A DNA stretch of 64,000 nucleotides from an uncultured Poribacteria bacterium (GTDB lineage: Bacteria; Poribacteria; WGA-4E; WGA-3G), in contig OX639973.1 of NCBI GenBank assembly GCA_951828385.1, positions 4,951,200 to 5,015,199 on the forward strand. Reading direction: 5' to 3'. Below the pieces are notes generated by a model. It saw only the letters and a list, made by a program, of their open reading frames with translations. It did no database searches and had not been told where the DNA came from. Below, in pieces: positions 46,238 through 52,811 of the stretch. The position numbers and the translations under genes were made by a program. Position 1 is the stretch's first letter. Each line of letters opens with the position of its first letter.

Positions 46238-48202
46238 ATGATTTCAAATACGAAAATTTGGATTTTGCGGGTAATAATCAACCTTGTATTCGGATTGCTT
46301 CTATTGGCAATATTGAGTTCGGCAGAGAGCGAAAACGACATATCCGAAACCGGTTCTGCCGTGGAATTAGAGCCTGTTGTGGTGACAGCGACAAGGACAC
46401 CACAACATCTGAAAGATACACCCGTTATTACAAATCTCATTACGCGTGCAGAGATTGAAGCAACCGGAGCAGAGAACGTCGGAGAAGTACTTGAACATAC
46501 GGCAGGTATCATTATCCACCGTGATGGACATGGCGACGGTGTACAACTCCAAGGGCTTGACTCTGAGTACGTGCTAATTCTCGTGGATGGCGAACCGCAA
46601 GTCGGGCGCATTGCTGGCAAACTTGACATGGCGCGACTTGCTATTGAAAACGTTGAACGCATAGAAATCGTCAAAGGTGCAACCGCTTCTCTCTTCGGCA
46701 ATGCCGCACTCGGCGGCGTTATTAACATCATTACCCGTAAAGCGACTTCACCCTTCTCAGTACAGGTCTCCCAGACTTTTGAGCAAAACAGCACGTTTGA
46801 TAGCCGAGGCACTCTTGAATTACAACGCGATAAACTTAACGCCCTTTTAACACTGAGTAGGAACCACCGCAGTCCTATTGATTTAGACACTTCGGATATC
46901 ACAACGACAATTGACGGTTATGCCAATGTAACGGGTTCCGCGCGGACGGAATATCAACTCACACCAGCGACAAGTCTACTATTTTCCGGACAATACTTCA
47001 CGCAGGATCAGGAGGGAATAAGTGAAAGCGGTCCCACTGTTTTTGACAGACTCGGCGACCTCGAAAACTTTAGTGGGAGTTTGGGAATAGAACATGAATT
47101 CGCTGATGCTACTTTACTAACCGGAAAAATCTATGTAACCCGATACGACGATGAATCGACCGTAATCAATAGAGAGACAACAGCGGTAGACTCCCGAAAC
47201 CTCAACATCCAAGACCTTGTCAAGGGCGAAGCGCAGTTTGACACAACGCTCTGGCGGAAACATCAAATAACCCTCGGTGGCGAGGTCGTTCTTGAAAATC
47301 TCCAATCTCAGCGGATTACAGGCGGGGAACGTGGAATTCTGACCAACGCTCTCTTTGTGCAGGACGAATTCCGTCCGATCTCTGCATTCGCACTCGTCAT
47401 TGGTGGACGTTTAGACAATCACTCCGAATTCGGTACGCATTTCAGTCCAAAGTTAAGCACGCTGTATCGAATGACCGACAACCTTCGGGTTCGTGCCTCG
47501 TATGGGCAAGGCTTCCGCGCACCAGATTTCAAAAACCTCTATCTCGACTTCACAAATGTGACATCCGGCTACCAAGTATTAGGCAATCCGAGCCTTCAAC
47601 CTGAATCCTCACACAGCTGGAATCTGGGACTGGAATATGAGATATTCAACGGTTTGCTTGGCAGAATCCACCTGTATCGCAACGACCTGCACAATTTGAT
47701 TGAAGCCGAGCGTATCGGACAGAGCGCGGCGGGTGGAAGCAAATTTGAATACCAAAACATCAGTAGAGCGTTCACAGAGGGCGTTGATGTTGAAGCCGTT
47801 ATCGGAAGTATGGGTGGATTTACCTCAACCCTCGGTTACGCTTATCTCCGGGGCGCGGATAAGAAGACTGGATTGGCATTGCTGAACCGTTCAACACACA
47901 GCGGCACACTTAAATTAGCATACCTACATGCCAATAGCGGCTTTCACGTTGACTTACGCGGACGCTACGCCAGTCCTTGGGGATTCTTTGATGATGGCGA
48001 CAAAGTACTTGAACCCGAAGAATTGGCACCGAGTTATTGGGTCTGGAACCTTCGCGCTTCAAAAACTCTTTTTAAGATATTTAAAGCCTCGATCGGATGC
48101 AATAATATCTTTGATTTCAAAATTCCTACATTTTACACGTTCACCGGGCGTTCTTTTTATGGCGGCCTCGCTTTAACCTATTATAGTGAAGCCCATAAAT
48201 AA
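46238..48202 (+). CDS. TonB-dependent outer-membrane receptor (iron/heme uptake)
   Basis: The 654-residue protein has a signal peptide, a TonB-box-like ELEPVVVTATRTPQHL, a plug domain (VLIDGEPQ-like VLILVDGEPQVGR, IEIVKGATASLFGNAALGGV) and a barrel ending VRASYGQGFRAPDFKNLYLDF... and FYGGLALTY. It imports iron complexes or heme across the outer membrane. AAGAGGAAAA upstream at 46226 is the ribosome site. The natural C-terminal end has been replaced: the last residues YSEAHK and the stop are encoded by MITE copy E. No Fur box was seen directly upstream. Confidence 0.92.
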   Translation: MISNTKIWILRVIINLVFGLLLLAILSSAESENDISETGSAVELEPVVVTATRTPQHLKDTPVITNLITRAEIEATGAENVGEVLEHTAGIIIHRDGHGDGVQLQGLDSEYVLILVDGEPQVGRIAGKLDMARLAIENVERIEIVKGATASLFGNAALGGVINIITRKATSPFSVQVSQTFEQNSTFDSRGTLELQRDKLNALLTLSRNHRSPIDLDTSDITTTIDGYANVTGSARTEYQLTPATSLLFSGQYFTQDQEGISESGPTVFDRLGDLENFSGSLGIEHEFADATLLTGKIYVTRYDDESTVINRETTAVDSRNLNIQDLVKGEAQFDTTLWRKHQITLGGEVVLENLQSQRITGGERGILTNALFVQDEFRPISAFALVIGGRLDNHSEFGTHFSPKLSTLYRMTDNLRVRASYGQGFRAPDFKNLYLDFTNVTSGYQVLGNPSLQPESSHSWNLGLEYEIFNGLLGRIHLYRNDLHNLIEAERIGQSAAGGSKFEYQNISRAFTEGVDVEAVIGSMGGFTSTLGYAYLRGADKKTGLALLNRSTHSGTLKLAYLHANSGFHVDLRGRYASPWGFFDDGDKVLEPEELAPSYWVWNLRASKTLFKIFKASIGCNNIFDFKIPTFYTFTGRSFYGGLALTYYSEAHK

Positions 48203-48330: not shown

Positions 48331-48431
48331 ATGATACGGTTTATATGTTACACAACCTTACTGTTAGTTTTCACCGTCAGCACTGCTGTCCTCACAGCGT
48401 CTGCTGAACTTTATCAATACACCGAAATTAA
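48331..48431 (+). pseudogene. Orphan signal peptide: truncated secreted-protein gene
   Basis: ATG 48331 after GAAAGGA starts a clear signal peptide (MIRFICYTTLLLVFTVSTAV with LTASAE cleavage region). After only about 33 residues the frame runs into the GGCATG..CGTGCC palindromic repeat at 48432 and then reads through the next gene out of frame. The mature part appears lost to a repeat-mediated event. Confidence 0.55.
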
Positions 48432-48470
48432 AGTAGTAGGCATGCTCCGTCGTGCCGTAAGGAGACTAAA

Positions 48471-48701
48471 ATGGGTTACAAAGCAGAATTTTTATCACAA
48501 ACCGAGGTATGCGCCATCTATCAATGCCTTGATGGACATATCCACCTGAAATATCGCACTTTAGACATCGCGATGGATGCTTGCGATTTCCACCAAGTTG
48601 CTGAAGTTTTTGTCGAAGCACTACGGGTTTTACAAAAGGTCGAAGAACCCGTAACCGAAGAAATCGATCTGAAAAACATGGATACGCTCGTGAAAGTTTA
48701 A
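48471..48701 (+). CDS. Small conserved-looking protein in the heme island
   Basis: The 76-residue protein has a good ribosome site (AAGGAG at 48458). It begins MGYKAEFLSQTEVCAIYQCL and has the phrase DGHIHLKYRTLDIAMDACDF; the Cys/His arrangement could bind a metal. It recalls short uncharacterised Bacteroidetes-type proteins, but no family can be named with confidence. Location between the TonB receptor and the HmuY-like lipoprotein suggests a role in iron handling. Confidence 0.65.
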   Translation: MGYKAEFLSQTEVCAIYQCLDGHIHLKYRTLDIAMDACDFHQVAEVFVEALRVLQKVEEPVTEEIDLKNMDTLVKV

Positions 48702-48784
48702 CCCAGCGTGTCAGAAAATCACCGATTTAATCTTGTAAAAAGATAGGCACAGCACTTGTGCCGCTACTTGACAGGAGAGCTAGC

Positions 48785-49471
48785 ATGGAAAACATCAGAA
48801 GTTTTGTCAATCAACACGCCACCGTCTCTCTTATGCTAATACTCGGCGTTGTTATCCTTTTCAGTTTCGGTTGTGGTCCCGTTGGTGAAGAAGACATTGA
48901 AAAACTGCTTCAGCCAGAGGAAACCGCCGACACGACACCGCCGGTGCCGACGGATACTGAGGCAACAGTCGAAGACCCCGTCGGACTTGAAACACTAACG
49001 TTCACGATTGACGCGACGAATAGAGAGGCGTGGGTATATTTCTCTTTCGCCACCGGGGACGTTGTTGAGGTGGAAGATGCCGAAAATTCGGATGCGTGGG
49101 ATATCGGTTTTCAGATAACGAAAGTCAAACTTAACGGAGGTATCAGCGGACCAGGAATGGGCAGTGTCGTCATGCTCACCGAGACAACTTTTGAGGCAGT
49201 GACAGCTGCCCCAGCAGACGGATACAAGGCTGATACGGAAGACACCCTTGCTATCGTTCCGCAAAGTGAGAAAGGGTGGTACATCTACACCGGACCCCCA
49301 ACACATTGGATCCTGCCCTTAGAAGATCGCGTGTTTGTGATAAAAGCCGCAGATGGAACGTTCGCCAAAGTCCAATTTGTCGGATATTACAAAGACAACG
49401 AAAACAAGGAAGATAGTGGTTTTGTGACCTTTGAATACGTCCATCAGCCGGACGGAAGTTCTAATTTTTAA
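48785..49471 (+). CDS. HmuY-family heme-binding lipoprotein
   Basis: From ATG 48785 (AGGAG 9 nt upstream) the protein has 228 residues with lipobox LFSFGC. The mature domain shows the HmuY pattern: FTIDATNREAWVYFSFATGD, VEVEDAENSDAWDIGFQITK and, near the end, VFVIKAADGTFAKVQFVGYY. HmuY proteins hold heme at the cell surface and pass it to a TonB receptor such as the one encoded upstream. Residues binding heme cannot be assigned by eye. Confidence 0.85.
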   Translation: MENIRSFVNQHATVSLMLILGVVILFSFGCGPVGEEDIEKLLQPEETADTTPPVPTDTEATVEDPVGLETLTFTIDATNREAWVYFSFATGDVVEVEDAENSDAWDIGFQITKVKLNGGISGPGMGSVVMLTETTFEAVTAAPADGYKADTEDTLAIVPQSEKGWYIYTGPPTHWILPLEDRVFVIKAADGTFAKVQFVGYYKDNENKEDSGFVTFEYVHQPDGSSNF

Positions 49472-49677: not shown

Positions 49678-50697
49678 ATGCTTTTTTGGCGTAACTTGCA
49701 ACGCCGGGGTCCCCGTAGCGAACAGCGTGCGGGGCAAACTTGCTATAAAATAGTTCGCTCAAACGTGTTCAAGGCATGGATATTAAGCGTTTCGATCTTT
49801 ATATTTTTCGGCATCATGCTCTGCCTTGCTGTCGCAGATGCAATTGAGGTCACAGATGCAGACGACAAAACCGTCGTTATCACATCATCGGAACGGATCG
49901 TATGTCTCAACGGCAGCACGACCGAAATTCTGTTCGCATTGGGTGTCGGGGACAAAGTCGTCGGTTGTGATGCCTCATCGTCATATCCGAAAGGTGTGAA
50001 AGAAAAGTTGCCGAGCGTTGGGTATCAATATGGACTCAACGCTGAAGGAATTCTCTCTTTAAATCCAACGTTGGTGATTGGGCGTAACGATGTAAGACCG
50101 CCACAGGTCGTGCAACAACTCCGCATGGCGGGTGTAACCGTTCTACTGCTTAAAGAACCCCGCAGTTTTGAAACTGCCAAGCAACGCTTGCTAACGATCG
50201 GTAAAGCCGTCGGACGCAAGAAAAAGGCTGTGGAATTGATGGCGGCTTTAGATGCAGACATCAAGAAGCTGGAAACCAAACTCGCCGCTCGAAAAGACGA
50301 ACCGAAACAGAAAGCACTCTTTCTCTACCTACGAGGCACACAAACCACGCTCGTGTTAGGGACAGATACCGCACCGGGAGCGATGTTTGATATTGTTGAC
50401 GCTGAAAATGCCGCTGGAAACATCAAGGGAAACAAACCGATGACGGCAGAAGCAGTGATCGCTGCGCAACCCGATGTCTATGTACTGTTTACTACGGGCT
50501 TGGAATCAATCGGTGGGGTTGATGGACTACTCAAATTACCCGGGTTAGCACACACACCCGCGGGACAAAACAGACGCGTTGTGACGCTTGATGGACAATA
50601 TTTGTCCGGATTCGGTCCCCGTTGTGGACGCGCTGCACTCGACCTATTCCGAGGCATCTACGAAAAGGATGGGCACTTTATTGCCACAGGCGAATAA
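49678..50697 (+). CDS. hmuT: Hemin ABC transporter substrate-binding protein (HmuT/BtuF-like)
   Basis: The 339-residue protein has a strong ribosome site (AAGGGAGGAAAC) before ATG 49678. The first 30 residues are a basic extension partly encoded by a palindromic GGGGTCCCC-type repeat. A hydrophobic signal segment follows (residues 33-52). The binding-protein domain shows RIVCLNGSTTEILFALGVGD, KLPSVGYQYGLNAEGILSLN, PTLVIGRNDVRPPQVV and LPGLAHTPAGQNRRVVTLDG. It delivers hemin to a FecCD-type permease; the permease gene after it is badly deleted. Confidence 0.9.
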   Translation: MLFWRNLQRRGPRSEQRAGQTCYKIVRSNVFKAWILSVSIFIFFGIMLCLAVADAIEVTDADDKTVVITSSERIVCLNGSTTEILFALGVGDKVVGCDASSSYPKGVKEKLPSVGYQYGLNAEGILSLNPTLVIGRNDVRPPQVVQQLRMAGVTVLLLKEPRSFETAKQRLLTIGKAVGRKKKAVELMAALDADIKKLETKLAARKDEPKQKALFLYLRGTQTTLVLGTDTAPGAMFDIVDAENAAGNIKGNKPMTAEAVIAAQPDVYVLFTTGLESIGGVDGLLKLPGLAHTPAGQNRRVVTLDGQYLSGFGPRCGRAALDLFRGIYEKDGHFIATGE

Positions 50698-50724
50698 TTC
50701 TATAGTATCGCGCCTTTAGACAAA

Positions 50725-50934
50725 ATGCAAAAGCGAACGAAAATTCTGTTCATCCTGATCGGTTTACTTCCGATATCAATGTGCATCGCAGCAGGGATAG
50801 GCGCGTATCAAATTCTACCGTGGCGTATCCCGCGAATTCTATTTTTCCGAGAAGAGGGTTTCGTTACTGCACTCATTGGCGGCCCCTTCTTCTTGTGGCT
50901 ACTGCTCAGATTTAAACGTGAAGTTTTTTTATAG
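50725..50934 (+). pseudogene. hmuU: Internally deleted FecCD-type hemin permease gene
   Basis: The 69-residue product fuses a typical permease start (first membrane helix then GIGAYQILPWRIPRIL, about residues 1-42) to the typical end EEGFVTALIGGPFFLWLLLR. A normal HmuU has about 340 residues, so roughly 270 residues have been removed in frame. Both remaining parts fit the family well and it still lies between hmuT and hmuV. The transporter encoded here should lack a working channel unless another permease exists. Confidence 0.8.
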
Positions 50935-50939
50935 GAGAA

Positions 50940-51085
50940 GTTATCCGCTGTCAATTAGTAGGAATTGGATTCCCCAACCCATACGTCCCCAATGGGTGTA
51001 CAAGTAATTATGGGTTTTACTATAACGTTCATCAGAACCCTCTTTAACTGACAACTGACAACTGACAACTGATAACTAAAAATAC
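50940..51085. repeat. Intergenic inverted repeat and MITE end remnant
   Basis: GTTATCCGCTGTCAATTAG (50940-50958) pairs loosely with CTGACAACTGACAACTGATAAC (51050-51078). The stretch GTAATTATGGGTTTTACTATA (51004-51023) matches the right end of MITE family 1, without a left end. It separates the deleted permease from hmuV. Confidence 0.5.
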
Positions 51086-51086
51086 A

Positions 51087-51857
51087 ATGATTGAATTGGA
51101 AAACGTTGGTTACCGCATTGGCGCGAATTGGTTGGTCCGAGACATTAGTGTCACGATTGAGAACGGGACGTTATGTGGATTTGTCGGTCCCAACGGTGCT
51201 GGTAAATCGACACTCCTACGCCTCATCTCTGGGGAACTCTTGCCAACGACTGGAGAAATCCGGCTCATCGGCAAACCTATTCGTAGGTATGAACCGAAAG
51301 AATTGGCACGCCTCCGGGCTTATCTCCAACAAAAACGGGATATAAACTTCCCTTTTACCAGTTTGGAGGTTGTCCTATTTGGACGACATCCCCATCTCAA
51401 CGGCACAAAAGAGACTGCCAAGGACATCACAATTGCCAAAGGCGCGCTGCAGCGCGTTGAAGCCGATATGTTTGAAGGACAACTCTATCCAACGCTATCT
51501 GGTGGTGAAGCAAGCCGTGTTGATGTCGCACGGATCCTCACGCAAGCCCCAGACCTGTTTCTGTTAGATGAGCCGACGAATCACCTCGATCCGAGACACC
51601 AAGTACAAATACTCGACCTGTGTAAAACGATTTGTAGTCGAGGCAAAACGGTCATCACCGCAATTCACGACCTGAACCTTGCATCAATGTATGCCGATCA
51701 GTTATTGCTATTGAAAGATGGGATTTCTGTGGCGTGCGGGCCGCCTGAAACCGTGCTGACCCTGGGGCTGTTAGCAGAGACTTACGGTATCCCGTTTGAT
51801 ATGTTGCCGCATCCAGATGGCTATTCGTGGGTGATGCCGAGCCTGAATGTTTTGTAA
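51087..51857 (+). CDS. hmuV: Hemin ABC transporter ATP-binding protein
   Basis: The 256-residue ATPase has Walker A GPNGAGKS, signature LSGGEASRVDVARIL, Walker B LFLLDEPTNHLD and the HmuV-like LRAYLQQKRDINFPFTSLEV and PETVLTLGLLAETYGIPF. It energises hemin import with HmuT and HmuU. The gene appears intact although the permease gene is not. It follows an inverted repeat and has no clear Shine-Dalgarno sequence. Confidence 0.92.
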   Translation: MIELENVGYRIGANWLVRDISVTIENGTLCGFVGPNGAGKSTLLRLISGELLPTTGEIRLIGKPIRRYEPKELARLRAYLQQKRDINFPFTSLEVVLFGRHPHLNGTKETAKDITIAKGALQRVEADMFEGQLYPTLSGGEASRVDVARILTQAPDLFLLDEPTNHLDPRHQVQILDLCKTICSRGKTVITAIHDLNLASMYADQLLLLKDGISVACGPPETVLTLGLLAETYGIPFDMLPHPDGYSWVMPSLNVL

Positions 51858-51927: not shown

Positions 51928-52112
51928 TAAAGTTTGGACAGTTTTTTGTAGCATAGGAGACCGTTAGCCTGTGTATCTTCTGTAGCATAGGCTGTTAGCC
52001 TGTGGCAAATTCGCAGTTACCGTTATTTTTCAGCGAGTTCTGTGGCAGATGAAACACCAAAGAAAATCCTTTCAACCTCTGGGAACGCAACTGAAATGCG
52101 ACATAAATTGTC
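51928..52112. repeat. Inverted-repeat element with TGTAGCATAGG cargo
   Basis: AGTTTGGACAGTTTT (51931-51945) and AAATTGTCCAAACT (52095-52108) are inverted. Inside are two hairpin modules of the type TGTAGCATAGGCTGTTAGCC. Only one copy was seen in the window. Confidence 0.55.
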
Positions 52113-52180: not shown

Positions 52181-52641
52181 ATGGAAGACGGAAGAACAGA
52201 CGCAATTATCAAAGAACTGACGCGTGCTTATTGGTTAGAGTTGGAAACAACATTAATTATCTGGCGATCTCCGTCGACTTGGACGGCATCCGCGCTGAAG
52301 AAATTAAAAAATCCTTGGCAGCAGATATCCAAACAGAAATTACACACGCACAAGAACTTGCCGCTCGCATAAAGGAAATTGACGGACGGGTCCCCGGTTC
52401 GTTCGCCTTTAAACCCGAACAGGCATCGCTGCAACCGCCCGAAGATTCAACGGATGTTGTGGCAACGATCCATGGGGTCATTGAAGCCGAAAACGCCGCG
52501 ATTGAACAGTACAACAAAATTATCCGCTTATGCGATGGAATTGACTACGTCACGCAAGACCTCTGCATCAAACTTCTCGCCGATGAAGAGACGCACCGCC
52601 GGGAATTCAGAGGGTTTCTCAAAGAATACGAGAACGACTAA
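52181..52641 (+). pseudogene. Ferritin-like protein gene with a one-base frameshift
   Basis: The frame starting ATG 52181 (AGGAG upstream) gives MEDGRTDAIIKELTRAYWLE. The homologous continuation NYLAISVDLDGIRAEEIKKS lies in another frame from about 52255. One base is missing after ACAACATT near 52253. The joined protein of about 153 residues is a bacterioferritin/rubrerythrin-like four-helix domain with metal ligands in EITHAQELAAR, IEAENAAIEQYNKI and LADEETHRREF. It may be a true pseudogene or an assembly error. Confidence 0.8.
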
Positions 52642-52811
52642 TTCTAACCCAAGTTGCCACTTTGTAGCATAGGCTGTTAGCCTGTGCCTCTTCGGGTTCT
52701 CCGAAAATGGCAGGAAACACGCCAAGTTTTTCGCAAAAATGACCGCTTTTCACTGAAAAATGGTGTTCGTGCGTCTAAAATCATATAGGTAACACGTTGG
52801 GTTAATTCTAG
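52642..52811. repeat. Probable inverted-repeat element (TAACCCAA ends)
   Basis: TTCTAACCCAAGTTGCCAC at the left and ACGTTGGGTTAATTCTAG at the right are inverted. The left end resembles that of the element at 39199. The core begins with TGTAGCATAGGCTGTTAGCC. No gene is present. Confidence 0.5.

Follow-up and report, generated by a model that had tools for sequence, protein, structure and literature searches.

An apparently recent in-frame deletion reduces the heme-type permease gene hmuU to 69 codons in a poribacterial sponge symbiont

Introduction

Permeases of the FecCD family form dimers with about ten helices per subunit, and a cytoplasmic segment of each docks the ATPase, as in BtuCD and HmuUV. 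The conserved LNAMSLGESEAYHLGV segment of the family lies at this ATPase contact, corresponding to the cytoplasmic docking segment in the BtuCD and HmuUV structures. Among systems described previously, three resemble the locus reported here. The first comprises the hemin permeases HmuU/BhuU (4g1u, 5b57): our locus encodes a remnant that keeps both ends of an intact protein of this type, as found in the related genome G017, but lacks 262 of its 331 residues, the LNAMSLGESEAYHLGV segment included. With the Hmu operon of Bacteroidota (hmuYRSTUV), it shares an HmuY lipoprotein, a TonB receptor and inner-membrane genes, yet its inner-membrane genes encode, as in Yersinia-type HmuTUV, a binding protein (T), a FecCD permease (U) and an ABC ATPase (V). 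Finally, it is reminiscent of deletion pseudogenes of symbiont uptake genes in its internal deletion, dispensable importer, intact neighbours and independent losses among relatives. In contrast to these, the frame has been kept, a small open reading frame (ORF) is left, and the genome is large (6.66 Mb) rather than reduced. Loss of this importer is not described in the listed titles and abstract openings of related poribacterial and HmuY/HmuU literature (PMC8546597, PMC12583661).

Results

A poribacterial heme-type uptake operon

The window analysed here, a stretch of 64,000 nt, belongs to the single-contig genome of a sponge symbiont, and the relatives sharing the locus are Candidatus Poribacteria at all 15 named loci. 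Pfam searches and comparison with these relatives identified a poribacterial heme-type uptake operon that comprises a TonB receptor, two HmuY proteins, HmuT, HmuU and HmuV and is organised as follows:

46238–48202, + strand: TonB-dependent receptor, intact (Pfam, comparison with relatives)
48331–48549, + strand: remnant of hmuY copy 1, retaining a signal-like N-terminal end (comparison with relatives)
48471–48701, + strand: intact 76-aa ORF between the hmuY copies, function unassigned (comparison with relatives)
48785–49471, + strand: hmuY copy 2, HmuY lipoprotein, intact (Pfam, comparison with relatives)
49678–50697, + strand: hmuT, periplasmic binding protein (Peripla_BP_2), intact (Pfam, comparison with relatives)
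50725–50934, + strand: hmuU remnant, 69-aa ORF with ATG start (ORF list, Pfam, alignment to relatives)
50861–50863, + strand: deletion joint (direct reading against relatives, best-joint scan)
51087–51857, + strand: hmuV, ABC ATPase, intact (Pfam, comparison with relatives)
52181–52641, + strand: ferritin-like gene downstream of hmuV, frameshifted (Pfam, comparison with relatives)

Both hmuT (Peripla_BP_2, E = 7.5e-37) and hmuV (ABC_tran, E = 1.3e-27) are open and full length relative to their counterparts, in agreement with an earlier note on this DNA, to which they had looked intact. The HmuY neighbours, together with hemin permeases as the nearest solved relatives of the intact permease, point to heme as the probable substrate. 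For hmuY copy 2, a GTG at 48758 offers an alternative start. The 76-aa ORF is conserved but has no Pfam match; 13 genus loci out of 14 carry it (the contig of the 14th ends before it), with dN/dS values of 0.034–0.122 over seven pairs with the symbiont genome. hmuU and hmuV are separated by 152 bp that contain a short ACTGACAACTGACAACTGA-like repeat (50995–51080), and similar pieces match unrelated places of several related loci. A GTAGCATAGGCTGTTAGCCTGTG-like motif is repeated in the intergenic stretches flanking the ferritin-like gene (51950–52010 and 52660–52690).

hmuU is reduced to its two ends

In 12 members of the genus with an intact gene, hmuU measures 996 bp including the stop codon versus 210 bp here, so that 786 bp, or 262 codons, have been lost in frame. 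The remainder consists of codons 1–46 fused in frame to the final 24–25 codons of the 331-aa permease: residues 1–48 align with codons 1–48 of the intact relatives and residues 44/45–69 with their final 25–26 codons, with nothing in between. Descent from the 331-aa hmuU located between hmuT and hmuV in the relatives is thus apparent at both ends. The earlier note had proposed an in-frame internal deletion joining the first helix of the permease to its last 25 residues, and the comparison bears it out.

At 50861–50863, the triplet TCG can be read from either side in the relatives, which leaves the placement of the joint ambiguous (~50860–50868); scanning against the relatives put the best joint at nt 136–144 of the ORF, varying by relative. 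The deletion may therefore have involved a microhomology of ~3 bp. The longest exact matches between the end regions of 12 related genes were 7–9 bp long, scattered and in other registers, and no shared stretch of ≥10 bp was detected near both deletion ends in these genes. Recombination between long repeats was rejected on these grounds, and the lack of a longer repeat at the joint also argues against a repeat collapse in the assembly.

Against the Pfam FecCD model (PF01032), the remnant scored 18.8 bits (E = 0.00092), below the gathering score of 26.5, and matched only positions 264–311 of the 311-position model. With 69 aa and two hydrophobic segments, it has neither the ~ten-helix channel nor the ATPase-docking segment of the family, the conserved LNAMSLGESEAYHLGV segment falling within the missing part. 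A single-sequence AlphaFold model of modest confidence (mean pLDDT 73.2, pTM 0.44) placed helices at residues 3–30 and 37–68. A channel formed by this remnant is not plausible.

Distribution of intact and broken permease genes

The intact protein of G017, the nearest relative at this locus, is a FecCD permease whose nearest solved relatives, the hemin permeases 5b57 (E = 2.1e-79) and 4g1u (E = 2e-70), match it over nearly its full length. Searching 72 genomes of the order (E ≤ 1e-6) returned a permease in 30, full length and in one open frame in 27 of them. The three broken genes are those of the symbiont genome (deletion), G030 (three pieces in three frames) and G043 (a relic matching residues 12–64, with a stop). 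The 69-codon form was found in the symbiont genome alone. Within the genus, hmuT and hmuU were matched in the identical 14 of 38 genomes and, at the cut-offs used, neither was matched in the other 24. Full-length hmuU without stops is likewise present at all 15 named loci, ten of which are genus members already counted. In G004 and G035, a 204-aa ORF resembling ribosomal protein S4 (by eye) lies between hmuT and hmuU, accompanied in G004 by WD40-like and PQQ-like ORFs.

No replacement permease of the same family

The FecCD model identified no gene at E ≤ 1e-10 in the symbiont genome. Two weaker matches proved to be ABC-3 (zinc/manganese-type) permeases, scoring 158.7 and 237 bits as such versus 31.8 and 31.9 bits as FecCD, and one of them is preceded by an ORF that by eye resembles an ABC ATPase. 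Substitution by another FecCD permease, for which the earlier note had recommended a genome search, is not supported. hmuT has a single match in the genome (E ≤ 1e-20). Of an HmuTUV-type importer, the binding protein and the ATPase are present and intact, and no complete permease was found at the locus or elsewhere in the genome. An unrelated (non-FecCD) route may substitute for it.

Ferrochelatase is encoded in all 38 genomes of the genus; heme import thus looks dispensable, and the cells probably complete heme synthesis themselves. Most likely, the symbiont makes its own heme and import is an accessory trait.

Constraint on the neighbouring genes and age of the deletion

HmuU of the relatives is strongly constrained (median dN/dS 0.041; 36 pairs). 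For hmuT of the symbiont genome, dN/dS was 0.056–0.109 against eight relatives (G017 left out), and the pair with G017 gave 0.151 at low divergence, exceeding the maximum of 0.127 among other pairs. Values for hmuV were 0.077–0.121, compared with 0.044–0.174 in other pairs. Both genes of the symbiont genome lie mostly within the range of the other pairs, with no clear sign that constraint has relaxed. As both are also open, the lesion looks young. Over its first 139 nt, the remnant differs from intact hmuU of G017 at two sites, and its codons 1–46 encode an identical protein. These comparisons fit a recent deletion.

The similarity to G017 is confined to a tract. Identity reaches 96% over 49996–50863 only (L033 7733–8600) and is mostly 72–84% elsewhere in the locus; dS between the two genomes amounts to 0.161 for hmuT, 1.108 for hmuV and 1.384 for the receptor. 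In G017, where a ~730 bp deletion joins hmuY2 to hmuT at a GTGAAA match, the tract ends at this fusion. It likely represents an exchange between species. In G017, hmuT and the first 150–300 nt of hmuU resemble the symbiont genome and G020, and most of the receptor, the remaining hmuU and hmuV tend toward G006 or G033, a pattern suggesting that a lineage close to the symbiont genome supplied G017 with hmuT and the beginning of hmuU. To the right of the joint, the symbiont genome is nearest to G032, G020 and G027 (62, 61 and 61 of 71 nt), and G020 and G032 are also among its nearest relatives in hmuT and hmuV. Because the 96% tract stands amid an identity of mostly 72–84%, we considered incoming G017-like DNA as the cause of the deletion, but rejected it as the main reading since G017, not the symbiont genome, looks like the recipient; this rejection is no proof, the end of the tract on the symbiont side being hidden by the deletion itself. 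If G017 was the recipient, the donor lineage would still have carried hmuU past the present joint at the time of exchange.

Further lesions in the locus and in its relatives

Beyond what the earlier note had described, two additional genes of the symbiont locus are damaged. hmuY copy 1 has lost ~540–550 bp near 48422 relative to its counterparts, shifting the frame and leaving a 72-aa out-of-frame ORF, and the ferritin-like gene is frameshifted after codon ~24–25, with the rest lying in another frame.

Lesions also occur in other genomes. Either hmuT or hmuU is broken in four of the 14 genus loci: the symbiont genome, G017 (through the hmuY2–hmuT fusion), G030 (frameshifts in hmuU) and G060 (frameshift in hmuT), the latter two being fragmented assemblies whose lesions may be errors. 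hmuY1 is truncated in G019, and in G027 the receptor is frameshifted near its start. Altogether, at least one gene is broken in six of the 14 loci, as judged from genes within contig or fetch ends and with the same proviso for fragmented assemblies. In G043, which belongs to another genus, hmuT codons 257–274 are directly followed by hmuU codons 7–61 with a stop (L089 9418–9636), and no receptor, hmuY or hmuV was found in the 19 kb fetched around this relic. The heme-import locus looks to be decaying repeatedly, with several relatives losing it independently.

Discussion

The hmuU remnant very probably stems from a deletion that recently inactivated a dispensable heme importer, i.e. from ordinary gene decay. 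A single deletion of 786 bp, probably between very short matching sequences, would have taken out hmuU codons ~47–307, with the frame retained by chance (odds of about one in three). Its 69-residue product would have two helices at most and would lack the cytoplasmic segment gripped by the ATPase and most of the channel, which would leave the inner-membrane step dead. Heme import over the inner membrane through hmuTUV has thus most likely been lost. HmuT, HmuV, HmuY2 and the receptor would still be intact because too little time has elapsed, and poribacteria would shed heme import repeatedly as an accessory trait. Among the three options that the earlier note had left side by side, a dead and decaying system is the one favoured by the lack of another FecCD permease, the further lesions in the locus and the independent lesions or absence in relatives; a substitute permease of the FecCD family and a new role found no such support.

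Certain observations run counter to decay, namely that frame, start and stop are kept, as they would be in a functional mini-protein, and that hmuT and hmuV show no decay. The latter two being open, under constraint much like that in relatives, is what would be expected if the importer still functioned with another permease partnering HmuT and HmuV. This scenario is nonetheless highly improbable, given that no other FecCD permease was found and that the two weak matches are ABC-3 proteins, with an ATPase ORF of their own alongside. The retained frame and the two helices of the single-sequence model could, in turn, indicate a new role for the 69-residue protein, e.g. as a two-helix membrane protein modulating HmuV or the envelope. 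We give this idea almost no credence: the form occurs in only one of the 72 order genomes searched, an open frame is retained by chance in about one of three cases, the two helices simply derive from the termini of the complete permease, the model is of modest confidence, and the remnant is devoid of the cytoplasmic segment that docks the ATPase in this family. Equally far-fetched is a two-helix membrane miniprotein whose frame is under selection and that puts the importer to another use, e.g. by anchoring or braking HmuV, with HmuT and HmuY binding periplasmic heme for storage or detoxification.

An assembly error or the consensus of a mixed population, with hmuU actually full length or deleted in some cells only, is unlikely, too. 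All 15 named related records are metagenome assemblies and the symbiont assembly probably is as well; either a deletion in only part of the cells or a misassembly may count against decay. Yet no collapsible long repeat flanks the lost 786 bp in the related genes, the joint reads cleanly through in frame, the missing segment is found nowhere else in the genome, and separate lesions affect the same locus in the symbiont genome and in its relatives.

Decay of hmuU thus remains our preferred reading. It would document a distinct and seemingly recent stage as sponge symbionts lose a heme importer, whose condition in relatives ranges from intact through part-broken and relic to absent. For annotation, it implies that the presence of hmuT and hmuV here should not be taken for a working importer. 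More generally, it raises the question of what makes heme import so easy to lose.
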